Source: Planctomyces sp. SH-PL62 (GTDB taxonomy: Bacteria > Planctomycetota > Planctomycetia > Planctomycetales > Planctomycetaceae). Taken from it: DNA of 51,450 nucleotides. Numbering within the stretch: position 1 is the stretch's first letter; the number at the start of each line of letters is the position of its first letter. The notes beneath the pieces were generated by a model. The model was not told the origin of the DNA, did not search any database, and saw nothing but the letters and a program-made list of their open reading frames with translations. Below are positions 487 to 44,223 of the stretch, in pieces. The position numbers and the translations under genes are program-made. The stretch is taken from positions 1 through 51,450 of the forward strand of contig CAMDPX010000021.1 in NCBI GenBank assembly GCA_945905295.1. Direction: 5' to 3'.

Positions 487-3400
487 ATGGCAGGGATGCC
501 GGTCGTGAATCGGAACTCGACAAGATTGACCATCGTTTCACGTAGCCACGGCTGGCTCGCGCTGTGCCTGTGCGCGCCGCTGGCACTGCTGGGTTGCACG
601 CACACGGCGTCCTCAACCGGCCATGCCTTCACGAACAGCGCCACAGAGACCAACGGGACCGCCGTCACCGTCCCCGGTACCGTCGGCTGGGTGGACACCG
701 GCCTGCAAGTTGTCGATGGCGAACCGCTCTCGATCACGGCCAGTGGTCGCGTCGTCGTGCGGCAATCCGACCGTTTCGGCCAGAAGTTCGAGGCGACCGT
801 CAGCCCTGAAGGAACCTTCATGGTCCACGACGGCATTCAAGACCAGAGCTTCCCGCTCCCCAGCGGAAATCACGGACCTGCTCCCTGCTTCTGCTTGATG
901 GGCCGCATCGGCGAAAACGGCAAACCATTCTTCGTCGGCAAGCGCAAAAGTTGGCAAGCTTCGAGCAGCGGCCGCTTGCAACTCGCGGTCAACGACTTCG
1001 ATCCCAGCGACAGCGAGGGAGCGTTTCACGCGGAAGTCTCGCGGCCGAAGCTCGTGCAACCGATGAGCTACGAGGAGGTCGTCCCGGGGAACTCGGCCGA
1101 CGGCAAGCCCTTGCCGAATTGCCACGCGGTCGTCTTCTATGTCGATGGCCTGCGCCCCGACGTCGTCCGCGAAATGGCCGCGATGGGACATCTGCCGAAC
1201 ATCAAATCGCTGTTCCTCGACAATGGCTGCTGGATGTCCAACTGCTTCACCGCTTTCCCGTCCGACACGATCACCTCCAACGGCACGATGTGGACCGGCT
1301 GCTTCTCGGACCGGCACGGACTGAAAGGGCAGGTGCGGTTCTGCCGAGAACGGCTCGTCTCGGAATCGTACCTCGATCCGCTCGGCCCCAGCCGCAGTTC
1401 ACGCATGTTGTCGCCACAAGGAGTCGATCGCGCGCTGGTCGATGGCCAATCGACCGTCCGCAAATGGATCTACGGTCACAAAGACGGCCACGCCTGGAAG
1501 CATTCACTCACCAGCGACATCGCGCCGATCTACGAAATCCTGCGCAGCGAAGGCCGCGACTGGTCCACCGGAGTCTTGCCCGTGATGACCGACACGCCTC
1601 CTCCTCTCTGGAGCCGCAGCCTCGCGCGGACCGTGCCGAACCTCAACTCTCATGACGCTTGGAAATACATCGACGACGCGAACGCTAACTACGCCGTCAG
1701 ACAACTGATCCCGCGCGAACAACCGGTGACGATCGTCTGGTTGCCCGAAACCGATTCCGTCAGCCACAAAGAATGCCGCGGCCAATTCGGAGCAACACGC
1801 CGAACGATCGCCCGTGCCGATGAACTCATCGGCCAGATGGTCGCCGAGTTCAAAGCTCAGAATCGACTGCACTCGACCTACTTCTGCCTCGTCAGCGATC
1901 ACGGTCATCACGGCGGACGCACCGGACACCTCTCGCTATTCGACGTTGCCCACGAGTTGTTCTACCGGCCGCGCGAACTCGACGCCGACGGCCGCTGGGT
2001 TGGCGGAGGACTCGGCGTCACCGTGCGGCAACACCGCGAACGAGCTCATCACGACGGCGACGGCTTGCGTCAGTTCGTCTTCATCGACGGTGACTCCGAC
2101 GGAGTCGCCCGCGTCTTCTTTCCCAGAGGGCACTACCGCAGCAACAACTGGACGGGACCGAACCGTGCCGCCGACTTGCTGACCTATCGACTCGCCAAGC
2201 ACTTGCCGCCGATCAATCTCCCCGAGTTCATCGCCCGCGCCGAGTTCAACAACCCCGACGGACAACAGCAGGAACGCGGACGGGACGAACCCGCTCGCTT
2301 GTTTGAGGCCGCCGCGTCTCCGTCACGGCAACGAGCGATTGATCTCGTGCTGATGAAGCTCACCGAGAACTCCCTGTTGATCACGACCGCCGATCGCGGC
2401 TCCGCAGTCATCGAACGACAGCCGCTGGAACGGACATCAACCGACACGATCCGCTGGCAACTGCGGTACTCCGTCGTGACCGATGTGAAGCCGACCGCCG
2501 ACAGACAAGTCACTTACAACGTCGTCGAGCATCCGTTGCGCGACCCGCTCGGCCTCACACAACTCGTCGATGCCAGCTACCTCCGCGAATGGCACAACGA
2601 ACGCGAGTGGCTCGAAACGCAGACCCCCAGCCTGTACCCCGATTCCGTCGTGACCCTCTCGCGGCACATGCTGTGGCAAGAAAACATCGTTCCGCAAGAA
2701 GTCGATGCCGCTCCTGATCTCGTCATCACGGCACGACCCGGCTGGTACTTCGGCAGCGAGAGTTCCCCCGGCACGATGCACGGCTACCCGTTGGCCGATG
2801 CCATGCGAGCCAGCATGTTCGTCGCCGGCCCCAACGTCCGCCGCGGTGCCCGCATCGACTCACCTTGCCGGCTCGTGGACTTGACTCCCACTCTGCTCGA
2901 CATGGTGGGCAGCGGCGTTCCAATGGATCATTTCGACGGTCAACCGATCCGTGCGATCTATCAACCCGATATCCCGCACTTGCCGACCCCGATGTTCTCT
3001 CAACACATCCAACAAAGTCAGTTTCCGATCCAGCTCGCTTCAGCCGATGACTCCAATGGCCTCTCTTCAAAGATCGCGGCTCGCAGCCCCGCCGGCGACA
3101 TCACGTTGACCTCCGGGCAAGTCATGCGCGCCGTCTTTTGGGATTCGGTCGATCTGAAGGCGTGGCAACCGGTCAGCTACCAACCCGTCCCCGAATACCC
3201 GGACCAGCCCCTGACCATCAATCATCCCGCCAGCCCGTATGACCTCAACAACGTCATGTACAACGCGCTGCTGTTCACCGAACTGAGCGTGTTCCGCATC
3301 ATGGACGACGTGATCTCACCGCTGACGCGCGGCCGCCACCCCTTCATCACCGCGACCGACCGCGTCGATCTGGCACTTCGGCACCATCGCAGCGAGTGGG

Positions 3401-3759
3401 TTTCCGAAAGCGCGAACGTCGTCGACCTCACCAACGCGACGATCTGGGATTACCAGATTACCTCGCAAACCAACCTCCGCCGCATCAACGCCGCCGTGGA
3501 TTACGTACAGCGCCGCGAGCAAGACATCGAAGAAAACCTCGGCGATGTCACCGGCCAATCACCACTCCCCACGTCGAAGCTGCTGCACCGCTCTGTCGAT
3601 GCCACCCAACTCGGCTTCTGGAATCTCTACGGTTTCGGCCAACGCACGCTCGTGCAACTGCTCGACGAAACGCTGATCCAAGGCATCGAAAACTCAACCG
3701 ACAGAACGCTCAACGCCGCCCGCCCCATGCCCGCAGAGATTCGAGCGTCCCACAAGTAG
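487..3759 (+). CDS. Lipoprotein phosphodiesterase/phosphatase of the alkaline phosphatase superfamily with N-terminal LecA-like domain
   Basis: This 1090-residue protein begins with a lipoprotein signal whose lipobox LALLGC places the acylated Cys near residue 37, so it should sit on a membrane facing the periplasm. Residues about 60-185 resemble the PA-IL/LecA galactose-binding fold (start WVDTGLQVVDGEPLSI, end LQLAVNDF). From about 214 on, it has the metal-site order of type I phosphodiesterases/nucleotide pyrophosphatases: FYVDGLRPDV (Asp about 220), FPSDTITSNGTMWTG with the likely Ser/Thr nucleophile (about 257-271), ETDSVSH (about 421), SDHGHHGG (about 470), and a C-terminal core LVDLTPTLLDMVG (about 795-808). 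About 250 further C-terminal residues are unassigned. The substrate is unknown. A second ATG at 496 is an alternative start. The TAG stop falls inside the GTAG head of the repeat at 3756. The catalytic superfamily call is solid; the lectin-like call is less so. Confidence 0.8.
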   Translation: MAGMPVVNRNSTRLTIVSRSHGWLALCLCAPLALLGCTHTASSTGHAFTNSATETNGTAVTVPGTVGWVDTGLQVVDGEPLSITASGRVVVRQSDRFGQKFEATVSPEGTFMVHDGIQDQSFPLPSGNHGPAPCFCLMGRIGENGKPFFVGKRKSWQASSSGRLQLAVNDFDPSDSEGAFHAEVSRPKLVQPMSYEEVVPGNSADGKPLPNCHAVVFYVDGLRPDVVREMAAMGHLPNIKSLFLDNGCWMSNCFTAFPSDTITSNGTMWTGCFSDRHGLKGQVRFCRERLVSESYLDPLGPSRSSRMLSPQGVDRALVDGQSTVRKWIYGHKDGHAWKHSLTSDIAPIYEILRSEGRDWSTGVLPVMTDTPPPLWSRSLARTVPNLNSHDAWKYIDDANANYAVRQLIPREQPVTIVWLPETDSVSHKECRGQFGATRRTIARADELIGQMVAEFKAQNRLHSTYFCLVSDHGHHGGRTGHLSLFDVAHELFYRPRELDADGRWVGGGLGVTVRQHRERAHHDGDGLRQFVFIDGDSDGVARVFFPRGHYRSNNWTGPNRAADLLTYRLAKHLPPINLPEFIARAEFNNPDGQQQERGRDEPARLFEAAASPSRQRAIDLVLMKLTENSLLITTADRGSAVIERQPLERTSTDTIRWQLRYSVVTDVKPTADRQVTYNVVEHPLRDPLGLTQLVDASYLREWHNEREWLETQTPSLYPDSVVTLSRHMLWQENIVPQEVDAAPDLVITARPGWYFGSESSPGTMHGYPLADAMRASMFVAGPNVRRGARIDSPCRLVDLTPTLLDMVGSGVPMDHFDGQPIRAIYQPDIPHLPTPMFSQHIQQSQFPIQLASADDSNGLSSKIAARSPAGDITLTSGQVMRAVFWDSVDLKAWQPVSYQPVPEYPDQPLTINHPASPYDLNNVMYNALLFTELSVFRIMDDVISPLTRGRHPFITATDRVDLALRHHRSEWVSESANVVDLTNATIWDYQITSQTNLRRINAAVDYVQRREQDIEENLGDVTGQSPLPTSKLLHRSVDATQLGFWNLYGFGQRTLVQLLDETLIQGIENSTDRTLNAARPMPAEIRASHK

Positions 3760-3779
3760 GTCAGGCTTTCCAGCCTGAC
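3756..3779 (+). repeat. Single REP-like hairpin unit, GTAG family B
   Basis: A GTAG tetranucleotide is followed by an 8-bp hairpin, stem GTCAGGCT with loop TTCC and closing arm AGCCTGAC. The same unit occurs twice, facing each other, at 28724-28803. The TAG of the head is the stop codon of the upstream phosphodiesterase gene. The hairpin may also affect transcript ends between this gene and the convergent cobA-hemD gene. Confidence 0.85.
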
Positions 3780-3832
3780 ACGAACGCTCACCAGCGCACC
3801 GACTCCGGTTCACCCAGCCCGAAAACGCAAAC

Positions 3833-5359
3833 CTACTTCGCGGACTCCACCTGCTGAATCGCCGCCAACATCCCATCCCAAGTGTGCTCCGTCGCTTCAG
3901 CCGACACCGGCAAGCCAACCTCCCGGCAAGCAGCCGAGGTCACGGGACTAATACTCGCGATCCGAATGCACTGTCCTAGCTGCGCTCGCGCCTGCTCCGG
4001 CATCAACCGCGCGACATTGCGAGCAATCGCTGGGCTGCTGACACCGATCCAATCGAGTTGCCCCGCGATCAACCGCTGATTGACGTCATCGGACCAGGCC
4101 GCCACATCATGATGCTGATAGACAACGGCCTCTTCGAGTTGAGCACCTGCCGCCGTCAATTCCGTTCGCAGTACGTACCGCACGCGATTGGCCCGCGCCC
4201 ACAACACTCTTTGCCCGGCCATCTGCGGGCACAACGCAGCAGCCAGATGCTCCGCCCGATAAGTCTCGGGCACGACATCCGCTCGCAATTGAAACTCACG
4301 CAGCGCCGCCGCCGTAGACGGACCGATGGTCGCCAGTCGCGCCTTGCCAAGCTTCCGCGAGTCGCCCCCCAATTCCCAAAGGCGACCCAACAACGCTCGC
4401 ACGCCGTTCGCACTCGTAAAAACAATCCAGTCGAACTCGCCGATCCGCCGCAGAACCTCATCCACCGCATCCCATGTCTCTGGAGGCTCAATCTCCAACG
4501 TCGGCATCAACACAGCCTCCGCTCCCAACTCAAAGATGCGGTCGATCTGTGCGTCCGCTTGTTCGTCCGCGCGTGTCACACCAATCCGTCGCCCGAACAA
4601 CGGCCGCTTCTCGAACCACGCGAGCTGTTCGCGTTGCAGCACACACTCACCAATCACAATCAACGAAGGGGGACGCAGACCAGCAGACGCGACGTGTTCC
4701 GCAATTGCTCCCAGCGGTGCCGTCACTGTTTGCTGCGACGGCAAACTCGCGTGGCTGATAACCGCCACCGGCGTCGCCGCATTCTTGCCCGCCGCGATCA
4801 ACGCTTCTGCGATCTGCGACAGACGATGCCAACCCATGTAGAACACCAGCGTCCCCGGAAACGCGGCGAGCACTCGGTAATCCAAACTCGGCGAGTCCTT
4901 CGCCGGGTCTTCATGCCCGGTGATGAACGCCACCGCCGACGCATGATCGCGGTGTGTCACCGAGAACCCCGCATACTCTCCCGCCGCGACCGCCGCGGTC
5001 ACACCCGGCACAACCTCGAACGGAATCCCCGCCGCTGCCAACGCCGCCGCCTCTTCGCTGCCTCGGCCGAACACGAACGGATCGCCCCCCTTCAACCGAA
5101 CCACCGTCTTCCCGGCTTGCGCCGCCGCGATCAGTCGCCGATTGATCTCCTCCTGATCCAGCCGACGCTCACGACCATCCGAGACCCGACATGTTCGCTC
5201 CGCACGGGCCTTCGAATGCCGCAACAAAATTGGATTCACCAAGCCGTCGTACAACACGACATCCGCTCGGCGCAGACACTCCAATCCGCGCAGCGTCAGC
5301 AACCCCGGATCTCCCGGCCCCGCACCCACCAAATAGACCGTGCCGATCGACGCTGACAA
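3833..5359 (-). CDS. Uroporphyrinogen-III C-methyltransferase / uroporphyrinogen-III synthase fusion (CobA-HemD)
   Basis: A 508-residue fusion protein of tetrapyrrole biosynthesis. Residues about 1-250 are a SAM-dependent uroporphyrinogen-III methyltransferase with the signature VYLVGAGPGDPGLLTLRG at the N-terminus, VRLKGGDPFVFGRG near residue 90, and THRDHASAVAFITGHE later in the domain. Residues about 255-505 match uroporphyrinogen-III synthase in size and pattern (GRRIGVTRADEQA start, VFTSANGVRALL, ATIGPSTAAAL). The protein would cyclise hydroxymethylbilane to uroporphyrinogen III and methylate it towards precorrin-2, feeding sirohaem or cobalamin. The start is TTG at 5359, chosen because GAAGGAGG lies a few bases upstream. 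The rplQ terminator separates it from the ribosomal cluster, so it probably has its own promoter between 5360 and 5420. Comparable fusions are known in several bacterial groups. Confidence 0.93.
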   Translation of the reverse strand: MSASIGTVYLVGAGPGDPGLLTLRGLECLRRADVVLYDGLVNPILLRHSKARAERTCRVSDGRERRLDQEEINRRLIAAAQAGKTVVRLKGGDPFVFGRGSEEAAALAAAGIPFEVVPGVTAAVAAGEYAGFSVTHRDHASAVAFITGHEDPAKDSPSLDYRVLAAFPGTLVFYMGWHRLSQIAEALIAAGKNAATPVAVISHASLPSQQTVTAPLGAIAEHVASAGLRPPSLIVIGECVLQREQLAWFEKRPLFGRRIGVTRADEQADAQIDRIFELGAEAVLMPTLEIEPPETWDAVDEVLRRIGEFDWIVFTSANGVRALLGRLWELGGDSRKLGKARLATIGPSTAAALREFQLRADVVPETYRAEHLAAALCPQMAGQRVLWARANRVRYVLRTELTAAGAQLEEAVVYQHHDVAAWSDDVNQRLIAGQLDWIGVSSPAIARNVARLMPEQARAQLGQCIRIASISPVTSAACREVGLPVSAEATEHTWDGMLAAIQQVESAK

Positions 5360-25850: not shown

Positions 25851-28709
25851 CTATTCCACGTACAAAAACCCGTTCGACGAAAGCAGCATCTGGCAGAAGT
25901 CGGTCCAGGCACGCGGCGAAGCATTCTCCGCCGGCTCATACGCGCGGGTTTGCTCTTCAATGAACGCCAGCGACGCCCGCAACTCAACGTCCGAAGGCGC
26001 GTGTCCGGTTGCGAGTTCAAACGCCAATCGAGCACGGAGACGGGGATTGGGCGGAGCTTCACGCTCCAAACGCCGCGCGAAGTTGGACGCACGAGCCAAC
26101 GCGAACTCGGAATTCAATTGGCTGAGCGATTGCAGCGGCATTGTCGTCGTCGGCCGTTGCACACAGTTAAACGTCACGGCCGGAGCATCGAACAGATTCA
26201 ACATGCTCAGCGTCTGCGTGCGTCGCTGTTGCAAGTAGACCGAACGCCGATGAGCACCGGGATGGCCGTCATTCACAACCACTTCGGCCGCGCTGCTGCG
26301 TTGTGTCGGCACATACGGCCCGCCGAGTCTCCGTTCGAGCGAACCGCTGACGAACAGCATCCCGTCTCGAATCGACTCAGCATCCAATCGTCGCACCGGC
26401 TGCCGCCAAAGCAGTCGATTGTCCGGATCGACCGCGAACGCGGCGTCGTTGAGTTGGCTTGATTGCCGGTACGTGCCCGACTGCAGGATCGCGCGATGCA
26501 GGCGTTTGATTGATTGGGAATTTGAAATTTGAGATTTGAGATTTGAAATCTCCGATTTGAAATCTGAGAACTCTGCCGCCAGCCATTCCAATAACTCAGG
26601 ATGCGACGGAGCCGCGCTGCTGACTCCCAGATTGTCGAGCGTCGTCACGATCCCGCGACCGAAGTGACGCTCCCAAAGTCGATTCACCTGTACGCGAGCC
26701 ATCAGCGCCGAGGCGGGCGAATCACGTCGCGTTAGCCATTCGGCCAGAGCGGTGCGGCGTCGCGAAGTCGAATCAGACGTCCCTGCAATCACGCGCAACG
26801 GAGCAGGCTGCACGAACTCACCCGGAGTCGTCACGTTGCCGCGCAACAAGATCGGCACGTTGGGTGGTTCGGCCGCGACGTCGCTGGCCCAAGCGATCTT
26901 GCCAGGGCGTGCGGTCTGACGCTTCTGAACTTCGGCGACCGCATCGGCCAGCGTCTTGCGTCGCGATTCGTATTCGGTGCGAAACGTTTTCAATGCCGCT
27001 TGAGCCGCTTCGTCCTGTGTGCTGCCGGTTGAGGATTCGACGGTGACGTTGTCGACGATAAAGCTACGGTTGCAGCAGAACTCGAAGCCGAAACCGCCGT
27101 CAGGCAAGTCTTCGGCCGTCAGATCCAGCGTTCGTTCTTCCGGCAGCCAATCGACGAGTTGTTCGAGTTTGAATTTCTTTCCGTCGAGATTTGTGACCCG
27201 CACGCCGAAGTTGCGTCCTGGCTCGTAACCGCTTTTGCCGATCACGCCGCGATGCGTTTGATCGGTTCCGGGATAATCGAGATGCACTGCTGCTCCGCCC
27301 GCCGGATTGCCGTCGATCAAAATGTTTCCGCCAGCGGTCGAGCTGTTGTCGTTGAAGTCGTGCAGCGCGACGAAGAATGCGATTCTCTCGGCGGGCTTGT
27401 CATCAGAGCTGACTTTGTTGTCGATCAGATCGAACGTCGCCTGAATCCATTCGCCCGGTTGATTCGGTGTCCAATCGAAAGCCCGTTGGGTTGAGACCCA
27501 TTTGTCGCCGGATGGTCCTCCTTCGATGATCCGCAGCGTGCCGTTCGCGCGGACGGCGGCGGGGGTTGGCGGCACCGGCGAGGACGCCGGTGCTACGGCG
27601 AGCGTCACGACTCCCGTTCCACCCGGAGCGTCATCGCCGGGAGCGGTGTTCGACCAGTTCGCGAGGAAGGTTGCTTCCGGGCCATCGAAGTCATCGGCGA
27701 ACAAGACCCCGGCGACGGGCCGATGCTCGCGCAGCCAGCGGGTGAACTCGGTTCGCAGCGAGGCGACGCGAGCCTCCGCTTCACGCTGCTGAGCCTCCCA
27801 TGCTTCGACCTCACCGGGGAGCGCTGCGTGCGTGAAACGCTCGTTCGGCTTGAGCCACTTCTGCATGTTGAAGACGGGATGCAGGTACGCTTGCAGTTGA
27901 TAGAACTCGCGCTGCGTGATCGGCTCGAACTTGTGGTCGTGGCACTTCGAGCACTGAATCGTCAGGCCGAGCAACGACGACGAAAGAATCTGCTGCGCCC
28001 CTTCGAGCGCGAAGTAGCGGTCGATCATGACCTCTTCCGGATTGCCGTCGCTCTCCCCCGAACCGTCTGGGCTGTTGCGGAGGAAGTGCGTCGCTTCGAG
28101 CAGGTCGATCATCTCCGGCGTCGCGTGCCGTTCATGCTGCTTGGGATCGAAGCCGCTGAGTTCGTCGCCGGCGATTTGCTCGCGGATGAACTGATCGAAC
28201 GGCTTGTCGGCGTTCATCGCACGAATCACATAGTCGCGATAGCGGTACGCCAGCGGGCGATCCGAGTCGGCGTTGAAATAGCCGTTCGAGTCGGCATAGC
28301 CGGCGACATCCAGCCACCACTTGCCCCACCGCTCGCCGTAATGCGGCGAGGCGAGGTAACGCTCGATCATTCGTTCGTAAGCGTCGGGCGATTGGTCGGA
28401 CACAAACTCCACAAGATCGCTCGGTGTCGGCGGCAGGCCGGTCAGATCGAAGGCGACTCGGCGAATCAGCGTTGGCTTGTCTGCTTCCGGGTTGAGAGAC
28501 AAACCTTGCTCTTCGAGTTTCGCCAACACGAAGCGATCGACGGGAGAGCGAACTCGCGCGACCTCTTTCACCACCGGCAGTGTCGGTGCTCGCAACGCTT
28601 GAAAGGCCCAATGGCTCGACTTCTCTTTTGGCGCGGGTTCCTCGGCGAACGTGGCGGCGAATGCTGCGAACAGCAAAACACTCACGATCGTGATGCGGCG
28701 TGTCGGCAT
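25851..28709 (-). CDS. Secreted planctomycete protein with DUF1549 and DUF1553 domains
   Basis: 952 residues from ATG 28709 (signal peptide MPTRRITIVSVLLFAAFAAT). DUF1549 (about 30-300) shows FDLTGLPPTPSDL, HYGERWGKWWLDVAGYADS and the CSKCHDHKFEPI motif near 253, a haem-like CXXCH site. A beta-rich insert at about 336-558 (FADDFDG ... FEFCCNRSFIVDNVTVESS) resembles a LamG/concanavalin-type jelly roll. DUF1553 (about 616-936) shows RVQVNRLWERHFGRGIV and WRQPVRRLDAESIRDGML. Function unknown; proteins of this kind often accompany DUF1501 proteins, here found 12 kb away at 41110. Two repeats lie in frame: 27573-27596 and 26518-26568. It is 105 bases downstream of the ECF sigma gene, with palindrome 28724-28803 in between. 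Confidence 0.9.
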   Translation of the reverse strand: MPTRRITIVSVLLFAAFAATFAEEPAPKEKSSHWAFQALRAPTLPVVKEVARVRSPVDRFVLAKLEEQGLSLNPEADKPTLIRRVAFDLTGLPPTPSDLVEFVSDQSPDAYERMIERYLASPHYGERWGKWWLDVAGYADSNGYFNADSDRPLAYRYRDYVIRAMNADKPFDQFIREQIAGDELSGFDPKQHERHATPEMIDLLEATHFLRNSPDGSGESDGNPEEVMIDRYFALEGAQQILSSSLLGLTIQCSKCHDHKFEPITQREFYQLQAYLHPVFNMQKWLKPNERFTHAALPGEVEAWEAQQREAEARVASLRTEFTRWLREHRPVAGVLFADDFDGPEATFLANWSNTAPGDDAPGGTGVVTLAVAPASSPVPPTPAAVRANGTLRIIEGGPSGDKWVSTQRAFDWTPNQPGEWIQATFDLIDNKVSSDDKPAERIAFFVALHDFNDNSSTAGGNILIDGNPAGGAAVHLDYPGTDQTHRGVIGKSGYEPGRNFGVRVTNLDGKKFKLEQLVDWLPEERTLDLTAEDLPDGGFGFEFCCNRSFIVDNVTVESSTGSTQDEAAQAALKTFRTEYESRRKTLADAVAEVQKRQTARPGKIAWASDVAAEPPNVPILLRGNVTTPGEFVQPAPLRVIAGTSDSTSRRRTALAEWLTRRDSPASALMARVQVNRLWERHFGRGIVTTLDNLGVSSAAPSHPELLEWLAAEFSDFKSEISNLKSQISNSQSIKRLHRAILQSGTYRQSSQLNDAAFAVDPDNRLLWRQPVRRLDAESIRDGMLFVSGSLERRLGGPYVPTQRSSAAEVVVNDGHPGAHRRSVYLQQRRTQTLSMLNLFDAPAVTFNCVQRPTTTMPLQSLSQLNSEFALARASNFARRLEREAPPNPRLRARLAFELATGHAPSDVELRASLAFIEEQTRAYEPAENASPRAWTDFCQMLLSSNGFLYVE
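26518..26568. repeat. AT-rich ATTTGAGATTTGA-type repeat inside the DUF1553 gene
   Basis: A run of ATTTGAAATTTGAG, ATTTGAGATTTG and AAATCTCCGATTTG is much more AT-rich than its surroundings. Read through the gene it encodes FKSEISNLKSQISNSQ, directly before SIKRLHRAI, where DUF1553 proteins normally have a short linker and GWSIK-LHR. Shares words with 15817-15850. Confidence 0.8.
27573..27596 (-). repeat. Single REP-like hairpin, GTAG head, inside the DUF1549/DUF1553 gene
   Basis: On the minus strand a GTAG head precedes the perfect 8-bp hairpin CACCGGCG / TCCT / CGCCGGTG. It is in frame and encodes VAPASSPVPPT in a loop of the inserted beta domain. Same architecture as family B but unrelated sequence. 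Confidence 0.85.
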
Positions 28710-28814: not shown

Positions 28815-29447
28815 CTATCGCGAGCCGGCGCGAGGGTCCACGAGTTCCTGGCCGCAGGCTTCGCGTAGCGCGGCCAACGCTCGGACCCACAACATGCGAA
28901 CGGCACCGGCCGAGCGGTTCATTCGCGTGGCGATCTCTTCGTGAGACAAGTTTTCGAGATGCCGAAAAATCAGCACGTCGCGATAGTCGCCCGGCAGGCG
29001 TGCGAGGACATCGGCCAGCAGCACATCCAGCTCGCGTCGTGCGGCTTGTTGACTGGGAGATGGGCCTGATTCGGCAAACATGGCACCGAGTCGTTGTGAC
29101 GACTGTGCGAGCGCCGCATCCAGCGACACCTCTTGCGAGATGTCCCGTTTCGCCGTGCCGTGATAGCGGCGAATTTCATGAGCTAACGCGTGAGCCAGAA
29201 TCTGTCGCAGCCATGCGGTCAGTTCCGCTTCGGTCGAACCTCGAAATTGAGGGAACGCTTTGATCGCTTCGAGCAGTGTTTGTTGCACGACATCCGACGC
29301 ATCGAATTTGGCGGCGAAGCGGCTTTCGAGTTGCACGCGCGCGAGCAACAACAGCCACGGCTCGAAGCGGCGCAGCAAATCTCCTTGCGCGGGAGACTCG
29401 CCGCGCCGTGCTTGATTCAGCAGCGACTCAAACGAAGTGTCAGCCAT
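28815..29447 (-). CDS. ECF-type RNA polymerase sigma factor
   Basis: 210 residues from ATG 29447. Region 2 (about 15-100) shows FDASDVVQQTLLEAIKAFPQ and GSTEAELTAWLRQILAHALA; region 4 (about 145-205) shows LARLPGDYRDVLIFRHLENL and HEEIATRMNRSAGAVRMLW, the DNA-binding helix-turn-helix. It should direct polymerase to a specific promoter set. It overlaps the end of the kinase gene by eight bases (ATGGCTGA holds both start and kinase stop), so it is translationally coupled to the kinase that probably controls it. Such ECF-kinase pairs are described for planctomycetes. The frame is open 57 codons upstream inside the kinase gene, but that start is unnecessary. Confidence 0.93.
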   Translation of the reverse strand: MADTSFESLLNQARRGESPAQGDLLRRFEPWLLLLARVQLESRFAAKFDASDVVQQTLLEAIKAFPQFRGSTEAELTAWLRQILAHALAHEIRRYHGTAKRDISQEVSLDAALAQSSQRLGAMFAESGPSPSQQAARRELDVLLADVLARLPGDYRDVLIFRHLENLSHEEIATRMNRSAGAVRMLWVRALAALREACGQELVDPRAGSR

Positions 29448-32400
29448 GCCGAGCGAGTTTCCTCCGACTGAAGTTCCACAGTTTGGAGACGTGCGGACCG
29501 ATGCCTCGCCAGACCAGCAGCATTGCTCCAACCGCGAAGGCTCCGAAGAACAGGATGAACCACCAGCCGTGCAATGAGTAGTGTTGTTCGGGAGACAACG
29601 AAGCTGACTCAGTCGCAAGCAGGATCACTGCCAGCGCAATCGCAGCGAGCACCGAGCCGCCCAGTAGCCAACGGACTCGTCGCCATTCGGCACGGAATAC
29701 GCTTTTCAGAAACTCGGTCGGCCACGCGAGAATCGGCAACGCGACGAACGCCATCGCGAGCTGTGCGCCCCAAGGCATGTCCCGCACCCCCGATCGTGAC
29801 GAGAGAGAAACCACCGAGCCCACACTCAGCGTGGCGACCGTCAAACCAGCGCAGATCAGCGCGCCGCGCCACCAGCCAAATTCACGGCGGCACACGCCAG
29901 CGCGGATCAGCCAGAACGGAATCAGCACGACGAAGAGCGACAACAGGATTGCTCGCGAGAGCTGCATCAGCACCAAGATCCAGTACGACGACGACCATCC
30001 GCTGGGAGTGGGCACCCACGGAAGTTGTCGAATCAGCCGCGGGTCGTCTCCCGCGCTGTGGCCGGTCTCCGACCGAGCCACCTTGGCCGACCGTAGGTCT
30101 CCTTGTCGGTTCGGGAGACCTTCGGTCGGGGCGGCGGCGGGGTCGGAGACCCGCGCCGAGCGCTGCTGGTAGCGTCCGTTCTCATCGGTCGGAAGCACGG
30201 CTCGCGAGACGACGTGGTTCAGAGCCTGCGGTCCGTCGCCGACGCGGGTCAGGAGTCGCGAGTTCTCAAACGGCGTCGCGATGTTCGCGTGATTGAGGTC
30301 GATGAGACGATTGTTTTCGTGAAGTGACGTATTCGTGCTCTTCCAACTGCGGCCGAGCGGTTTTCCGGTGGGGCCATCGAGCAGCGTCAGCGAATCACCG
30401 CTGGCGGTGACCACGATCGTGCGACCCTCGGCGGTTCGGTCAAAGCGTGTGACGTGGACATAATCGAACGACGGCGGCGACCATGTCCAGAGCACGTCGT
30501 GCAGACCGCGAGTCGCTGTGAGCTTGTTACCCACATACCTCAGCAATTCCTCGCCGCCGTCGCCGTCGAGATCGTGCGACCAGAGTTGATTCGTCGGATA
30601 CGGCCCGCGTTCGATGACTTTGCCAGTGTGGTCGAGCACCACGAGTTCCCATTGCGAGCCAGTTTCGTTGAACGCGACGGCGACGCAACGCTGTGTAGGT
30701 TGGGACTCCGTCCCGACCGCTCGATCAGATGGAGCGACACGGTCAGGGTCGGGACGGAGTCCCAACCTACTTGCCACGACCGTGATTCCCGGCGCGGCGT
30801 AGTGCTGGGGTTGCGAGCCTTGCCACGTCCACAGCGGTTCGCCGTTGTCGCCGCGGAGAACTGTGACTTGCGGTTGCTTCGACGGCATCAGCACGATTTC
30901 GGGGCGGCCGTCGCCGTCCAAGTCACTGATGATCGGCGGGTTGAAATCGTTGTTGTTGAAGCTCGCCCCTTCGAGCGGCTTCGGGCCCCACAGCACTTTT
31001 CCGTCGCGACCGTTCTGAACTTGCAGACTCACCGACCACGAGCCTTGTGGAGATTGTTGCGGCACGGTCAGCACAAGATCGCGCGTGCCGTCGCCGTTGA
31101 GATCGGTCGAGGCGTCGATGCGCAGGTAGTCCAGGCCGGGCGAGTGGCTGCCGGCGGTGATCTCAGCAATCGGTTCCAGCCAGCGCAGCGTTCCCGCGCG
31201 GCCGTCGATCAGCGCCACGAACGGTTGCTGATGTTCGCTGGCCGAACCGCCGACCTGTTCGGACCGGCGATAGCCGACCAGTCGCAAGGCTTGCAGCACT
31301 TCGGGCCGACCGTCGCCATCGAGGTCCACGGCCTGCGTCGAGACTGGTTGCAGCCGTCCGTTTCGCGATTGCTTCCATTCCTCGGAATTCTCGTCGGCAT
31401 TCGTCGGTCGCAACCAATCGGGCAACGGGAGCGGAACTCCGCCCCAGATTCGCTTTCCCGACTTGCTGGAGATCGTTTGCATCAACAGCGGAGCCTGTCC
31501 CGTTTTGACGAGCGGCACACGCTCGAAGTCCCAGTTGTACCCTTCGCGTAAGACCAGCAAGTCCGCGAGTCCATCGCCATCGAAGTCACCCAGCGGCAAC
31601 GGGAACGATTGCACGTCGCCGACTGTGTAGCTGTGCGGTGTCTCGGGCCATTCCGTTTTCCACTTCGACAGAATGCGGCCATCGCGTCCCGATGCAATCT
31701 GAATCGCATAGTCGCCGTGGCCGTGATACTTCTGTGACAACTCAGCGATGCCGTCGCCATCGAAGTCTTGCTCCTCGGCCCAGCGATCCAGCCGCCGAAA
31801 CGCTTCCGGTGGCGAGCCGCGCAGCACGACGAATTTGCCGCTCGTCGGGTCAGGGTGCGAGTGAGCATGCGCGAACCGTTGCGGATCGTCGGGCGCGAAC
31901 ACCGCGAGATCGTCCAACCCATCGTTGTTCCAATCGACGATCTGCGGGAACGCAAGATCTTCGGCGAGATGCTCGACTCGACCGGTCTCGGCCGACAACA
32001 CGAACAGCAATCGGGCTCCCGCATTGCCGATCCCATCGCCTCCCTGATCCGCATGACGCCGCACCGGCAGCACGAGCTTTAAGCCGTTGAATGAATCTTT
32101 TGGCGAGCCGGAGGGCGTTAGCCCCCGGACTTTCCCCGTCGCTCCGTCCGTCCGGGGGCTAACGCCCTCCGGCTCGCCGAGTGTTCCACGACCACCCCAC
32201 CACAGCGGCGCTTCCGGCGTCCCCGTCCACGTCGAGAACTCTGACATCCCGAACGGAATGCGCTGCCACCACACGCTCTTGCCGTCGCGGCCGGAGAAGC
32301 AGTCGACGTACAGAAAATACTGCTCGCGTTGATAGCCGACGCTCTGATGAGCGACCTGCATTTGTAATTCGCGACGCACCGTCACCATCACCAATTCCGA

Positions 32401-35286
32401 ATGCCCATCTCCATTGAGGTCCGGGCCAACCGCGAATTGCTCGGGCACGTGATGCGAGAATCCGGCACGTCGCGGAAATCGCCGAGTCCATCGCGGCTCG
32501 CCGGTCATGCCGTCCAACGCTCGGCAGCCGTCCGCCACGATCGAGCCTGATTCACGAACGCCCGGCAGGATCACTTCCAACTTGTTGTCGCCATTCAGAT
32601 CGGCGAGCAGCGGCCAACTGTGTCGCGCTTCGTTTTGATGCCAGGCTCCCACCTCGAAGCTGGACGGCACCTCCCACAGCATCTTGTTCTGAGTCACCGA
32701 GAACGCCATGTCTCGAATGCCTCGATCGCTGCTCATCACAGTGAGCAACACTTCGTTCGTGCCATCACCGTCGAGATCCCCAAACCGCGCATCGAGAATC
32801 GGTTCGTTCTCTCGCAGCAACTGCTGATTCGAGTTGTCTGTGCCTGATGTGCTCGGAGAGCGAAAACCCGGTCGCGGAGTCCCGGTCTGAAGATCCAGCA
32901 CGAGCAGTTTCGTTCCTCCGACCACAAACACTTCGCTGACTCCCCCCGAAGTCGTCAGAGGTGAAATCCAAACCGACGACTGCGGCGTAACGGCGATCCG
33001 TTCCGTTCGCCAACGCGATTCTCCGGAAAGAGCATCGACACTCTCGACCCAAACTTCTCCCGTTCCGGTCGAACGCAACGCCATCACCAGCAACGAACCA
33101 CACACCACCGGCGGACTCAGCAAGCGGCTCGCGTTTCCCTCCGCGTCCTGAGGCCGGAACCACCACAGAGGCTTGCCATCCTTGCCCGACGCCGCCATCA
33201 ACACCGCCGCCTTCGGAGTCAACGGCCCCGCACCAAAGTTCGTGCTGAAGGGATTGAGCTGACGAGGTGCCGCCCAAATCACATCCTCAACCCCGTCATC
33301 ATTCAGATCCCGCGCGGGGAAGATGATCTGCGGCGGTGCCCCATTCCGAAACCACCACGGATCAAACCACGACAACATCTGCTGCCAGGCAGAGACATCC
33401 CACTGAGCCGGCAACACCTTCCATGCCTCGCGGTCTTCGGGCAGCTTCAAGAACGAAATGATGTCGGGTGATTCGACACTCCAATTCGCCTCCCACAACG
33501 GCGCGACCTCTTTGCCTCGCGAGCCATCCGAATTCGCACTCGGCTGCGAGTTCGGGGAGTAACACCGCAACGTCGGCTTGCCACTGTCCTGAGGCCCGAT
33601 GAAGAGTCGCGGCTCGACCGCACTGAGCGGCACGGCGCTAGCCGCCGGTGATTCGTATCCACCGGCGGCTAGCGCCGTGCCGCTCACTTCCGCTCCCACC
33701 GGAGAGCGCAACGCGATTGGATAACCCACCGTCTCGTTCGCCAACCCGACTTCATGCGTCTGCTGCGATCCCGCTGCCACGTCGAACAAATACGTCTGAC
33801 TGACCTTCCCCGGCGCAGTGAGCCGCAGCCGATATGCTCCTTCTGGTAGCGCAACCGGCTCCTTCGTCGGCAACGTGAACGGTGATCCGACCGGCTCATC
33901 GTTGAGCGACAGCACTTCGGCGACCTCAGCCCGCTGATCGCCCTCACGCGGCGTGTTGAGCGTCACGTATCCGAGCTTCGCCTGCCCGTGTATCTGCCAC
34001 GCGATCAAACTTCCGACCACAACAAAAATCGTCGCCGCGACCGCCGCCGCCGCGATGCCGACGCTTCTCTTCTGCTGCTTGAACCAGCGAGCCGCCTGCT
34101 CCACCAACGTCGAACGCCGAGCTTTGATCGCTCGCCCTTCGACGAACGCTCGCAAGTCATCGGCCAACGCTTGAGCCGTCGCGTATCGCCGCTCCGGTTC
34201 CTTCGCGAGACATTTCAAAATGATCGTCTCAAAGTCGCGATGCAGGTTCGGGCGGACGACACGCGGAGTGGGTGGCTCAGCCGTAAGAATCTGCGTGATG
34301 ACCGCGTGCGGAGAATCGCCTTCAAACAACGGCCGACCGGTCGCGAGTTCGTACAGCGTTGCTCCGAGGCTGTAGATATCCGTTCGATGATCGACAGGGT
34401 TCTTCGACGCGGCCGCCTGTTCGGGACTCATGTATCGCGGCGTGCCGAGGATCGCACCCGCCATGCTCAGCGAGACATCATCCATCCGCTTGGCGAGTCC
34501 GAAGTCCGTCAGCCAAATTCGGCCGTCAGGATCGAGAATCAAATTCGACGGCTTGATGTCGCGGTGGATCACACCGCGATGGTGCGCATGCGCGAGCGCT
34601 TCGGCGGCTTGTAGTCCCCAGTTGGCGATTGCGCTGGTTCCGACCTGCGGCTGCCTTTGGTCCTTTGAGTCCTTTTTGTCCTTTGGAAATGACGAAAAGG
34701 ACTCAAAGGACGAAAGGGAGGTGCATTCCGCGAGGCTCCGTCCTTCGATGAACTGCATCGCGTAATAATTCACGCCGTTCTCGCAGCCGATGGCGAAGAT
34801 CGGGACGATGTTCGTGTGATGCAGTGTCGCGACGGTCTCCGCCTCGCGCTGGAAGCGCTGCATCGCTTCGCTGTCAGCCGCCGCTCCGTAGCGCAGCACT
34901 TTTAGCGCGATGCGGCGTTTGAGTGAGACTTGTTCGGCCTCGTAGACAACTCCCATGCCGCCGCGACCGACTTCGCGAATGATGCGGAAGTCCCCCAACT
35001 GCCCCAAGGATTCGGACGACGGGCGCACGACCGAGGCTCGATGAATGAACTCGATCCCGGACAAGCACTGCTCAAGCTGCGCCGCGAGTTCGGGATGCTC
35101 GGCCAACAGTTGTTGGCGATCCGGTCTCCGTCCCGCTTGAAGCTCGGCGAGGTAGGCGTCGAGCAGCGTCACCAATTTTGAAGAGGGCTCGTCCGGCAGC
35201 AGCGCTTGAGTCGGCGCGACAGCCAACTCCTCGCGGCTTGGCGTGTGGGGTGGCACTTCAGAGCGATTCGATTCGGACGCTGACAT
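29440..35286 (-). CDS. Large transmembrane Ser/Thr protein kinase with FG-GAP repeats and C-terminal membrane domain
   Basis: About 1,948 residues from ATG 35286 (CGGAG upstream; another start at 35334 is possible). Kinase domain about 100-385: GRGGMGVVYEAEQ, ALKVL with Lys129, VIHRDIKPSNLI (Asp243), DFG at 261-263, MSPEQ near 288. One membrane helix at about 409-432, a PEGA-like domain to about 510, then a long extracytoplasmic part with about eleven FG-GAP-type calcium loops (such as DLNDDGVED, DLDGDGTNE, DFDGDGLAD, DLNGDGTRD) spread over about 660-1580. The C-terminus has about five hydrophobic segments (about 1756-1940). Five palindromic repeats lie in frame. A signalling receptor coupled to the ECF sigma factor by gene overlap; the ligand is unknown. 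Confidence 0.93.
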   Translation of the reverse strand: MSASESNRSEVPPHTPSREELAVAPTQALLPDEPSSKLVTLLDAYLAELQAGRRPDRQQLLAEHPELAAQLEQCLSGIEFIHRASVVRPSSESLGQLGDFRIIREVGRGGMGVVYEAEQVSLKRRIALKVLRYGAAADSEAMQRFQREAETVATLHHTNIVPIFAIGCENGVNYYAMQFIEGRSLAECTSLSSFESFSSFPKDKKDSKDQRQPQVGTSAIANWGLQAAEALAHAHHRGVIHRDIKPSNLILDPDGRIWLTDFGLAKRMDDVSLSMAGAILGTPRYMSPEQAAASKNPVDHRTDIYSLGATLYELATGRPLFEGDSPHAVITQILTAEPPTPRVVRPNLHRDFETIILKCLAKEPERRYATAQALADDLRAFVEGRAIKARRSTLVEQAARWFKQQKRSVGIAAAAVAATIFVVVGSLIAWQIHGQAKLGYVTLNTPREGDQRAEVAEVLSLNDEPVGSPFTLPTKEPVALPEGAYRLRLTAPGKVSQTYLFDVAAGSQQTHEVGLANETVGYPIALRSPVGAEVSGTALAAGGYESPAASAVPLSAVEPRLFIGPQDSGKPTLRCYSPNSQPSANSDGSRGKEVAPLWEANWSVESPDIISFLKLPEDREAWKVLPAQWDVSAWQQMLSWFDPWWFRNGAPPQIIFPARDLNDDGVEDVIWAAPRQLNPFSTNFGAGPLTPKAAVLMAASGKDGKPLWWFRPQDAEGNASRLLSPPVVCGSLLVMALRSTGTGEVWVESVDALSGESRWRTERIAVTPQSSVWISPLTTSGGVSEVFVVGGTKLLVLDLQTGTPRPGFRSPSTSGTDNSNQQLLRENEPILDARFGDLDGDGTNEVLLTVMSSDRGIRDMAFSVTQNKMLWEVPSSFEVGAWHQNEARHSWPLLADLNGDNKLEVILPGVRESGSIVADGCRALDGMTGEPRWTRRFPRRAGFSHHVPEQFAVGPDLNGDGHSELVMVTVRRELQMQVAHQSVGYQREQYFLYVDCFSGRDGKSVWWQRIPFGMSEFSTWTGTPEAPLWWGGRGTLGEPEGVSPRTDGATGKVRGLTPSGSPKDSFNGLKLVLPVRRHADQGGDGIGNAGARLLFVLSAETGRVEHLAEDLAFPQIVDWNNDGLDDLAVFAPDDPQRFAHAHSHPDPTSGKFVVLRGSPPEAFRRLDRWAEEQDFDGDGIAELSQKYHGHGDYAIQIASGRDGRILSKWKTEWPETPHSYTVGDVQSFPLPLGDFDGDGLADLLVLREGYNWDFERVPLVKTGQAPLLMQTISSKSGKRIWGGVPLPLPDWLRPTNADENSEEWKQSRNGRLQPVSTQAVDLDGDGRPEVLQALRLVGYRRSEQVGGSASEHQQPFVALIDGRAGTLRWLEPIAEITAGSHSPGLDYLRIDASTDLNGDGTRDLVLTVPQQSPQGSWSVSLQVQNGRDGKVLWGPKPLEGASFNNNDFNPPIISDLDGDGRPEIVLMPSKQPQVTVLRGDNGEPLWTWQGSQPQHYAAPGITVVASRLGLRPDPDRVAPSDRAVGTESQPTQRCVAVAFNETGSQWELVVLDHTGKVIERGPYPTNQLWSHDLDGDGGEELLRYVGNKLTATRGLHDVLWTWSPPSFDYVHVTRFDRTAEGRTIVVTASGDSLTLLDGPTGKPLGRSWKSTNTSLHENNRLIDLNHANIATPFENSRLLTRVGDGPQALNHVVSRAVLPTDENGRYQQRSARVSDPAAAPTEGLPNRQGDLRSAKVARSETGHSAGDDPRLIRQLPWVPTPSGWSSSYWILVLMQLSRAILLSLFVVLIPFWLIRAGVCRREFGWWRGALICAGLTVATLSVGSVVSLSSRSGVRDMPWGAQLAMAFVALPILAWPTEFLKSVFRAEWRRVRWLLGGSVLAAIALAVILLATESASLSPEQHYSLHGWWFILFFGAFAVGAMLLVWRGIGPHVSKLWNFSRRKLARHG
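30050..30160. repeat. Compound palindrome with GTAG unit inside the kinase gene (GGTCTCC type)
   Basis: The hairpin words GGTC / TCC / GACC at 30064-30074 and GGTCGGAGACC at 30141-30151 face each other, and a GTAG-headed unit (30093-30096) follows with GTCTCC paired to GGGAGAC. It looks like several TCC-loop units piled up. In frame, it encodes a Pro/Ser/Arg-rich stretch (about residues 1709-1746) just before the C-terminal membrane segments. Confidence 0.7.
30695..30770. repeat. Paired REP-like palindrome, GTAG family F, inside the kinase gene
   Basis: Perfect 24-base facing arms (30695-30718 and 30747-30770). Each is a GTAG head plus a hairpin with stem GTTGGGAC, loop TCC and closing GTCCCGAC (one G-T pair). 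In frame, it encodes a segment with SRLGLRPDPDRVAPSDRAVG and ESQPTQ between FG-GAP blocks. Confidence 0.93.
32102..32178. repeat. Paired palindromic element, GAGC family D, inside the kinase gene
   Basis: Perfect 28-base facing arms (32102-32129 and 32151-32178). Each has GGC, head GAGC, then a hairpin CCGGAGGGC / GTTA / GCCCCCGG. In frame, it encodes GEPEGVSPR ... RGLTPSGSPK as a loop in the propeller region, about residues 1037-1062. Confidence 0.93.
33624..33686. repeat. Paired palindromic element, GAGC family E, inside the kinase gene
   Basis: Perfect 27-base facing arms (33624-33650 and 33660-33686) carrying GAGC and a hairpin GGC / GCTA / GCC with GC-rich flanks. In frame, it encodes SGTALAAGGYESPAASAVPL (about residues 535-554) between the PEGA-like part and the propeller. 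Confidence 0.93.
34655..34716. repeat. Pyrimidine/purine-tract palindrome inside the kinase catalytic domain
   Basis: Facing 26-base arms (34655-34680, 34691-34716), 24 of 26 bases paired, built from CCTTTGAGTCCTTT and its complement. In frame, it encodes SSFESFSSFPKDKKDSKDQR at about residues 190-211, between IEGRSLAE and the WGLQAAEALAHAH helix of the kinase fold. Confidence 0.88.
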
Positions 35287-35380
35287 GGCGCGACTCCGCG
35301 ATTGAGGATGTCCTACCAGGAAAGGGCCGCTCACTCACGCTTTGTCACGCGGATTTTCCAAATCAGGACCATCCGCCACG

Positions 35381-39576: not shown

Positions 39577-40866
39577 TCAAAGAAATCTGCGCACCGCTTG
39601 GCTCAGCCGCCGCATCCCTTCGCGGAGTCCCTCGGGCGATTGAACCCCGAAGCTGAGCCGCATGTGGTTGCATTGCCGCTGCTCGCGCGGGCCGCCGAAG
39701 CACAGTTCGCCGGGAACGTACATCACTTGCTCGACATCGACCGCTCGGCGAAAGAGCGGTGAATCGAAACCGGTCACGATGTGCGGCGGCAGAGTCATCC
39801 AGACATACAAGCCGCCGTGCGGATGGACCCACGAGACGCCCGGCAGATCGGCGAAGAACTCGTCGGCCGCGGCCAACATCGCGTCTCGCTTGATCCGATA
39901 CGCCGCGCGAACTTGCTCCGCGTGGATGGCGAAGCGACCTGAGCCGAGCAAATCCGCCAGCAAGTGCTGATTGAAATTGGCCGAGCCGAAATCTTGGTTG
40001 CCTTTCAAATCGTTGACTGCGTCGCGCAGCTCGCGAGGCATCAGGCCGAAGCCGACTCGTAGGCCGGGCGAGAAACTCTTGGAAAACGTCCCGGCATGGA
40101 TGACCGTGTCACCAGCGGTATCGAACGACCAGACGCTGGGTGGCGGTGGAGCGTCATAATGCAGCTCGCGATAGGCGGCGTCTTCGAGCACATAGATCTT
40201 CTCGCCGCGCCGCGTTGACCATGTCTTCGCGATCTCGACCAACTGGCCCCGGCGTTCCAGCGAGAGACTGATGCCGGTCGGGTTCTCGAATTCACTGACA
40301 ACGTAGATCAGCTTCACACGCGACAGTTCGCCGGCTGTTTCAAGTCGTTGTAGTTCGCCTTCGAGTGCCTCCATTCGCAGCCCATGCTCATCCGCCGGCA
40401 GCGCGATCGTGCGTGCCCCGACACCTTCGAGCACTCCCAGAAACACAAAATAGGTCGGCGCGGCGACGAGGCAGATGTCGCCCGGATCAAACAGCGCGTC
40501 GGCCAACAGCGCGAGCAATTGCTGTGAACCGGTCGTGCAGACAATTTCGTCGGCGACAGCAACGCGATGCGCCGCCGGTGCGGAAGTCTGTTCGATCCGG
40601 GTCTGATAGTCCGCAAGATGCTGTCGCAGTCGCAGCTCACCTTGCGTCGTGCCGTACTGCAACGCTGACTGCCCTCTCACTTCTTCGGCGAGGACTTCTC
40701 TCGCCGCTTCGATCGCTTCGGTCACGGGCAGCGAAGCGGCATCGACCAGTCCCGCTCCGAGCGACAAGACATGCGGATGCTCGACCCCTTGTTGCATGAG
40801 AAAACTGATGGCTTGATCGGCCGCCCAGCGGCGACGTTGGCTGAAGTTCGTGAGCGAATGGTTCAT
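39577..40866 (-). CDS. PLP-dependent aminotransferase, 2-aminoadipate/valine-pyruvate-like class I
   Basis: 429 residues. Landmarks: LQYGTTQGELRLRQHLADY, CTTGSQQLLALLADALFDPG, VVSEFENPTGISLS (substrate Asn), VLEDAAYRELHYD (PLP Asp), Schiff-base Lys in HAGTFSKSFSPGLRVGF, and the terminal Arg in HMRLSFGVQSPEG. It resembles the catalytic half of MocR-like proteins and the LysN type, without a DNA-binding domain. The substrate is not known. It is unrelated in detail to the aminotransferase at 21042. Confidence 0.9.
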   Translation of the reverse strand: MNHSLTNFSQRRRWAADQAISFLMQQGVEHPHVLSLGAGLVDAASLPVTEAIEAAREVLAEEVRGQSALQYGTTQGELRLRQHLADYQTRIEQTSAPAAHRVAVADEIVCTTGSQQLLALLADALFDPGDICLVAAPTYFVFLGVLEGVGARTIALPADEHGLRMEALEGELQRLETAGELSRVKLIYVVSEFENPTGISLSLERRGQLVEIAKTWSTRRGEKIYVLEDAAYRELHYDAPPPPSVWSFDTAGDTVIHAGTFSKSFSPGLRVGFGLMPRELRDAVNDLKGNQDFGSANFNQHLLADLLGSGRFAIHAEQVRAAYRIKRDAMLAAADEFFADLPGVSWVHPHGGLYVWMTLPPHIVTGFDSPLFRRAVDVEQVMYVPGELCFGGPREQRQCNHMRLSFGVQSPEGLREGMRRLSQAVRRFL

Positions 40867-44059: not shown

Positions 44060-44107
44060 ATCGTCGGTGACGCAACGCACTTCACACCGAGGCTGTGAAT
44101 AAATGAC

Positions 44108-44170
44108 GTGGGGCACGTTTTCAACGTGCCCAATCAGCCTATTTTCGAGCACGTTGAAAACGTGCTCCAC
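44108..44170. repeat. Paired REP-like palindrome, GTGG family H
   Basis: Facing 23-base arms (44108-44130 and 44148-44170) with two mismatches. Each has a GTGG head (GTGG and GTGG read inward, one arm GTGGAGC) and a hairpin GGCACGTT / TTC / AACGTGCC. It matches family G at 11566 in architecture and loop. Lies between convergent dapF and the PD40 gene. Confidence 0.9.
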
Positions 44171-44223
44171 GAAAACTTCACAGCCTCTCCGTTTGGATCA
44201 TGGCCCGGCGGTGTGAGCATCGT

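Follow-up and report, generated by a model that had tools for sequence, protein, structure and literature searches.

REPINs are doublets of REP sequences that form hairpins and occur together with RAYT transposases (PMC3116915). REPs tagged with GTAG/CGTC include intragenic copies, and dimers within genes encode 20 to 30 amino acids; Planctomycetes are among the hosts, genes with two REP insertions are reported from O. terrae, and recB of X. campestris and of X. oryzae carries different REPs at about the same site (PMC3733652). Rickettsia palindromic elements are in-frame palindromes in conserved proteins (PMC3767692, PMC2229807). Orthologous genes carry different groups among RPE-4/6/7 at shared insertion sites, which lie in solvent-exposed parts of the proteins, and the authors of that report favoured a common origin of RPE-4/6/7 and left hotspots open (PMC3767692).

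We analyzed a stretch of 51,450 nucleotides (the window) from Planctomyces sp. SH-PL62, whose genome is called G000 here. On the minus strand (29440..35334) the window carries a gene, delimited by its open reading frame, Pfam domains, and orthologues, for a Ser/Thr protein kinase with an FG-GAP/PQQ-like propeller and a hydrophobic C-terminal part. Counted from the GTG at 35334 the product has 1,964 amino acids, and the ATG at 35286 is the likely start. A preliminary description of this DNA held that the frame stays open across five palindromes and that kinase and FG-GAP motifs are present. Both points were borne out: the frame has no stop from GTG 35334 down to 29440, and Pfam finds a protein kinase at residues 117-392 plus FG-GAP repeats. 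The kinase catalytic motifs are present in a phmmer alignment to solved bacterial kinases.

Orthologues in two congeners (G002 and G010) identify the gene as genuine. The G010 orthologue is full length (2,025 amino acids, approximately 66% identity), that of G002 is split into three contig pieces, and a more distant one in another genus (G019) has 1,730 amino acids and 34% identity. The non-kinase part of the gene has matches at E ≤ 0.001 in 6 of the 12 genomes of the genus, with long matches only in G000, G010, and G002 among those 6; the matches listed for G005, G006, and G007 are short stretches fitting the translated segment of two of the palindromes (E3 or E1, described below), some of them within other long open frames. 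Two of the contig ends in G002 (the last 150 bases of L003 and the first 165 bases of L032, from contigs C461 and C362) lie inside the right arm of a third palindrome, E2. These ends show inverted termini and a repeated stretch, with the E2 right arm continuing into other sequence. It looks as though an insertion sequence entered the E2 right arm in G002, and the kinase gene of this species may be broken.

The five palindromes, all given for the minus strand, differ in their construction. E1 (about 30050-30160) is a composite REP-type palindrome with outer arms of 22 nt (30061-30082/30133-30154; 82% complementary) around an inner pair of 16-nt arms (about 30087-30102/30114-30129). Read by eye, its left part resembles a G002 element at the site matching window position 26768, its right arm represents another GGTCTCC-type family, and the whole reads as a composite of two related families. 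E2 (GTAGGTTGGGACTCCGTCCCGACC; 30695-30770), E3 (GGCGAGCCGGAGGGCGTTAGCCCCCGGAC; 32102-32178), and E4 (TGAGCGGCACGGCGCTAGCCGCCGGTG; 33624-33686) are REP doublets whose arms pair at 100%, with 24-nt arms and a 28-nt loop in E2, 29-nt arms and a 19-nt loop in E3, and 27-nt arms and a 9-nt loop in E4. The predicted translation of E2 contains the peptide SRLGLRPD..VGTESQPT, and that of E3 also fits places in other long open frames. E5 (34646-34725) is an imperfect palindrome with 39-nt arms (85%) in the kinase alphaD-alphaE region; in the structure model it appears as a low-confidence loop between helices D and E (residues 207-229, pLDDT under 50).

At one mismatch or fewer, the E2 core has 227 matches genome-wide and the E3 core has 95. 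In a 400-kb sample, the E1-type core and the E4 core have 7 matches each. E1 (as a composite), E2, E3, and E4 can thus be assigned by their recurrence to dispersed repeat families. The E5 core has 4 genome-wide matches at two mismatches or fewer, of which 2 are E5 itself, and with almost no other copies E5 was rejected as a repeat family. The five families proposed in the preliminary description therefore do not stand, since E5 lacks a demonstrated multicopy family.

The likeness to the REPIN/RAYT system as described (PMC3116915) lies in an inverted REP pair with a spacer, a hairpin for each REP, many copies, and a transposase gene adjoining family members. Two inverted REPs with a short spacer were found in E2, E3, and E4 (24- to 29-nt arms, 9 to 28 nt apart), and the inverted arms of E1 and E5 are imperfect. 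Many copies per genome were found for E2, E3, E4, and the E1 type, and not for E5. The GTAG tag occurs in E2 and in many of the elements that occupy the corresponding sites in relatives; it is absent from the E3 and E4 arms. Within a family, arms are constant and loops are variable. An uninterrupted stem of at least 5 bp within the arm itself is present in 213 of 514 distinct arms, compared with 47 of 400 shuffled arms; the other 301 lack one. Differences between the two arms of an element inside such stems comprise 49 compensated pair changes, 19 G-T changes, and 29 breaking changes, and this stem compensation over 514 arm pairs indicates that each REP is itself a hairpin. Because single arms contain stems and changes within them are compensated, the constrained unit is the single REP, and the palindrome is a REP doublet. 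Together, these data show that the elements are pairs of inverted REP hairpins of the REPIN type around a free loop, often tagged with GTAG.

Thirteen Y1_Tnp (RAYT-type transposase) genes score above the Pfam cut-off in G000. Two of them, L134 (1417-2229) and L135 (135-947), are Pfam-confirmed genes of 271 amino acids with E2-family palindromes on both sides, the right-hand one of L134 lying 435 bases away, and the REP-encoded peptide VGTESQPT occurs near the N terminus of both open frames. The E2 family thus has a RAYT gene flanked by its own REPs. L130 lies directly between two GGGGTCGGGAGTCTTTTTC palindromes, and L131, L132, L133, and L136 have one palindrome type at or within both ends of the open frame. 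The remaining six of the 13 genes have no same-type palindrome pair at both ends: L128 and L129 have no palindrome within 500 bases, L125, L126, and L127 adjoin palindromes with 0 to 1 copies in the sample, and L124 has a palindrome on one side only. The L127 frame, as read on the stated strand, is unlike a transposase. No element of the E1, E3, or E4 family was seen beside any of the 13 genes, and none was found with E5 around it. The pattern of palindromes around these transposase genes fits the RAYT-REPIN relation as published (PMC3116915, PMC3733652), and we infer that the REPINs are mobilized by RAYT/Y1-type transposases. As far as genome sequences allow, the REP-doublet anatomy, the dispersed families (E5 aside), and the transposase genes beside some of them are demonstrated. 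Another small element, in which GAGGCTGTGAA-like ends enclose a GTGGGGCACGTTTTC palindrome, was seen by eye at L047 14381-14445 (against G010), L038 19767-19831 (against G010 and G002), and window 44107-44171 (against G010). By eye, the L047 copy lies inside a REP hairpin that is intact in G010, the L038 copy lies inside a hairpin that is nearly whole in relatives, and a short repeated stretch marks the ends of the small element.

Palindromes scoring at least 16 number 142 in 451,450 bases (20 contig stretches plus the window) and 0 in five 20-kb stretches (100 kb) of a base-shuffled control that preserves base composition only; chance does not account for them. Likely coding frames hold 33 of the 142, 4 of them in the kinase gene, and four other frames (L038, L047, L049, and L052) hold two palindromes each, one member of the L052 pair being a simple-sequence repeat. 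The kinase gene is therefore an extreme but not the sole palindrome-carrying frame. Palindromes are rarer in coding DNA than its share of the sequence would lead one to expect: coding positions account for 27 of 140 palindromes compared with 1771 of 2379 grid points in G010, and for 15 of 104 compared with 1097 of 1521 in G002. These counts require flank identity above 76%, so that some kinase-gene sites fall out, and they come from stretches picked partly for orthology to G000 stretches, which would if anything over-represent coding palindromes. Coding status was called from open frames and from codon usage trained on six window frames, the kinase gene among them, and is wrong at some sites (window 40914, L044 14929, L050 18004, and L054 10071), where net changes are not multiples of 3.

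Comparison with orthologous sequence shows how these palindromes sit in genes. The net length change is divisible by 3 in 34 of 42 coding comparisons and in 36 of 94 others; these comparisons require flank identity above 72%, so that some kinase-gene sites fall out. Some of the 8 coding comparisons that are not multiples of 3 reflect a miscalled coding status or misanchoring, the comparison of window 32102 with G002 being misanchored. Among coding length changes of at least 30 nt, 14 of 23 (10 distinct places) involve a palindrome, a count that excludes 12 of 35 coding events, all from one tandem-repeat alignment in L037, and that includes one row out of frame (L044 14870, net −206). A further palindrome, outside this count, lies in G010 at L040 7160. 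The L037 alignment concerns an apparent tandem array at about 700-4200, which lies in an open frame, repeats at close to 309 bases, and shows up as a length difference recurring twelve times against a single G010 stretch.

Element-free orthologues of conserved genes have flanks that are 83 to 94% identical. These include a phosphoglucomutase-domain gene (L042 5567; net 60 nt; empty in G002 and G010), HypF (L044 11772; net 57 nt; empty in G010), and an ArgZ-like gene (L051 17950; net 90 nt; empty in G002 and G010); at L038 16503 (net 81 nt), a 27-nt segment is present in all 8 of the other congeners compared. Conversely, two likely coding positions of the window are element-free in G000 and occupied in relatives with net changes that are multiples of three: 40140-40156, with palindromes in G002 and G010, and 26768-26784, with a palindrome in G002. 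No constant target duplication was evident by eye at REPIN insertions in the orthologue alignments. By alignment, in-frame insertion with empty orthologous sites can be regarded as demonstrated, and we infer that the inserts are translated.

These results uphold the part of the preliminary description that proposed repeated palindrome insertion into protein-coding DNA: several families lie in frame in one gene, and orthologues of other genes (L042, L044, L051, and L038) show comparable sites without the element. That the insertions were selected, as it also proposed, is not supported, since palindromes are depleted in coding DNA and 34 of 42 coding comparisons keep the frame; depletion together with frame-keeping among retained elements is what tolerance plus purging predicts. 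As for its comparison with Rickettsia palindromic elements, the in-frame inserts in conserved genes, with an open frame and 34 of 42 net changes in multiples of three, make a fair analogy, and RAYT-linked REPs and REPINs are the better match.

Orthologues sharing the five kinase-gene segments as conserved protein without nucleotide palindromes would have spoken against insertion; instead, palindromes occupy all five sites in G002 and G010 (E2 in G002 being interrupted by contig ends). In the distant G019, none was found at these five sites, and only a weak 8-nt match occurs at E5. E2 and E4 are common to G000, G010, and G002, in the case of E2 in G002 as far as the contig ends allow, and E4 in G002 and G010 is the same element with a diverged loop. 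Their arms are 153/156 identical, compared with 458/600 for the flanks, in the only three anchored comparisons (E2 with G010; E4 with G010 and G002). At the E1, E3, and E5 sites, each congener carries a palindrome unlike that of G000. The E1 site holds a GTAGCC..CGCTCCGCG..-type element in both G002 and G010, the two resembling each other, and neither has a further copy at two mismatches or fewer in samples of 276 kb and 435 kb. Other families occupy the E3 site in G002 and G010, two other palindromes occupy the E5 site, and the swapped-in E3 and E5 cores recur in samples of the same species (3 to 10 matches). These alignments show that an in-gene site can stay occupied while the family of its insert changes, a feature that the preliminary description had missed.

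Turnover of this kind extends to other genes. The 42 coding comparisons comprise 11 with a different element, 10 with the same element, 13 empty, and 8 other; the corresponding numbers for 94 noncoding comparisons are 35, 26, 24, and 9. Four of the 11 different coding comparisons fall in frames that are probably not coding, and 7 fall at five sites (E3, E5, L038 17606, L039 781, and L040 6869). Besides the kinase gene, four genes show a change of occupant: a DUF1553 gene, L039, a P-ATPase gene, and a FadB-like gene. Swapped-in cores in these other genes have 4 to 21 matches in samples of the same species, with the site's own arms included.

The DUF1553 gene (L038, by Pfam) is informative about order. 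One element, with shared junctions and similar following bases, is present in G002, G007, G006, and G009; a second is common to G000 and G010 and shows by eye no remnant of the other family; a third is in G005. G003 has a weak palindrome only, G011 has an 87-nt segment without a detected palindrome, and none of the 9 species is empty. A two-gene tree (iqtree; 1,747 columns) separates G000, G010, G002, and G007 from G005, G003, G006, G011, and G009 with support of 100; support within the clades is 45 to 83, too low to order G000, G010, G002, and G007 among themselves. Forcing G002, G007, G006, and G009 into one clade is rejected (AU P = 4 × 10−38). The presence of the element with shared junctions on both sides of this split makes it look older than the split, and a shared element at such a coding site is to that extent ancestral-looking.

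In L039, for which Pfam gives only a cytochrome c domain (an assignment as a HEAT-type protein was rejected on this ground), a segment of 13 to 14 residues is element-free in G008, G004, G001, G009, and G003, the five other congeners recovered, and holds three different families in G000, G010, and G002. The E1-E2 ATPase gene (P-ATPase; L040) has two such sites. At site 1, G006, G001, and G008 lack an element, G000 and G007 have the same one, and G010 has a different one. At site 2, G000 carries a single REP, G010 and G006 carry two other palindromes, the G007 and G008 segments by eye resemble one decayed palindrome, and G001 has yet another segment. In the FadB-like gene (L036; 3HCDH and ECH domains), 8 of 10 species have a 20-residue linker, G000 has a REPIN, and G007 has a segment that by eye is half of an element from another family. 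At P-ATPase site 2 and at the FadB-like site, G007, G008, and G001 carry occupants that are not palindromes by score and were read by eye. The sequences compared show that related species can hold different families at a single coding site. One nested pair, a GTAG element lying within a GGCGAGC element, was found in G010 (site of window 22284), and all nesting seen was extragenic.

These observations are best explained if REPINs, moved by RAYT/Y1-type transposases, land mostly between genes, and if insertions within genes survive only when they are in frame, free of stops, and placed in loops or linkers. A REPIN of an unrelated family could later take over such an occupied site with the frame kept, perhaps by a route in which the new element nests in the old one and the old arms are then lost. 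Taken as a whole, with REP doublets, in-frame survival in tolerant loops, and reoccupation of a site by an unrelated family, we consider this explanation probable; it is based on comparison of draft genomes, in which no movement was observed.

A rather unlikely alternative is that elements entered a few tolerant loops independently, 20 to 40 extra residues being allowed in few places, so that sites merely look swapped. In its favor, E5 coincides with the break in the phmmer alignment to solved bacterial kinases, long variable inserts occur in this region in other kinases of the clade, the model gives it a pLDDT under 50, and the FadB-like linker is changed in two species and unchanged in the other eight. 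The L039 segment, however, is similar and element-free in five recovered congeners and so is not a readily filled loop, and chance coincidence within 60 nt would be approximately 0.005 per site before allowing for tolerant loops, given a coding density in G010 of approximately 0.08 palindromes per kb (27 in roughly 354 kb). At the DUF1553 site, one element is present in both clades and other inserts now stand in G000/G010 and G005; because of this history, independent insertion from an empty state is unlikely there. It is also unlikely that an ancestor had several tandem or nested REPINs at one site and that lineages kept different ones. The nested element of G010 (site of window 22284), the composite E1, and the two arms with different stems in the G010 element at the E3 site would agree with such stacking, but no two whole REPINs stand side by side at the coding sites read base by base, and the lack, by eye, of any remnant of the other family in the G000/G010 DUF1553 insert argues against it. 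At individual sites, either stacking or independent insertion may still have operated.

Two further readings invoke the insert itself. A selected function of the hairpin or peptide (translation pausing, a linker, or mRNA stability), for which any palindrome would serve and losses would be replaced, would account for the sites that remain occupied and for arms that are 527/550 identical, compared with 1705/2000 for the flanks, in shared coding elements. Arm conservation is equal outside genes (1392/1448), however, and owes something to the way shared elements were detected, which weakens any selection read from it; with empty orthologues in 13 of 42 coding comparisons and palindromes depleted in coding DNA, we regard this reading as improbable. 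Very improbable as a general account is divergence in place, the course proposed for RPE-4/6/7 in Rickettsia (PMC3767692), by which the arms of one old insert drifted apart. It was rejected for most sites because the occupants at E3, E5, L039, DUF1553, and P-ATPase are dissimilar and have cores found again within the same species; it was not rejected for E1, where a GTAGCC..CGCTCCGCG..GCCGAA framework is common to the G002 and G010 occupants, which differ by stem changes and have cores not found again in the samples. Beyond the preferred explanation, a resident REPIN may be a favored landing place for REPINs of other families, with DNA structure and not sequence as the guide, which would serially rewrite surface loops in many proteins; we offer this idea tentatively and think it possible but on balance doubtful.

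REPs within genes, genes hit twice, and recB genes with different REPs at roughly one site have been published before (PMC3733652). Our elements share with those GTAG REPs the in-gene dimers, the doubly hit genes, the different REPs at one site, and, in E2 and many of the swapped-in elements, the tag; they differ from them, as described there, in five sites within one gene, in the involvement of several genes and sites, and in having shared junctions and a tree on which the replacement could be placed (PMC3733652). The REPIN/RAYT system is described for extragenic space (PMC3116915); here, a single genome contains many families, part of the copies sit in frame within genes, and the family at a coding site can change from one species to the next. 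The Rickettsia elements are alike in being in-frame palindromes in conserved proteins with differing groups at one site (PMC3767692, PMC2229807); in contrast to the account given for them, the occupants here are dissimilar and belong to dispersed families, some beside a transposase gene (PMC3767692). Family-for-family replacement at coding sites on a tree was not found in the open-licence literature searched; as far as that literature shows, the novelty lies in placing on a tree the exchange of one dispersed family for another at fixed coding sites.

The choice between hotspots and divergence of one insert, left open for Rickettsia in the report cited (PMC3767692), is directly testable in this genus, which offers several sites, several sequenced species, and recognizable families, some of which adjoin transposase genes of their own. 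Were replacement general, new loop sequences in proteins would keep arising from mobile hairpins.
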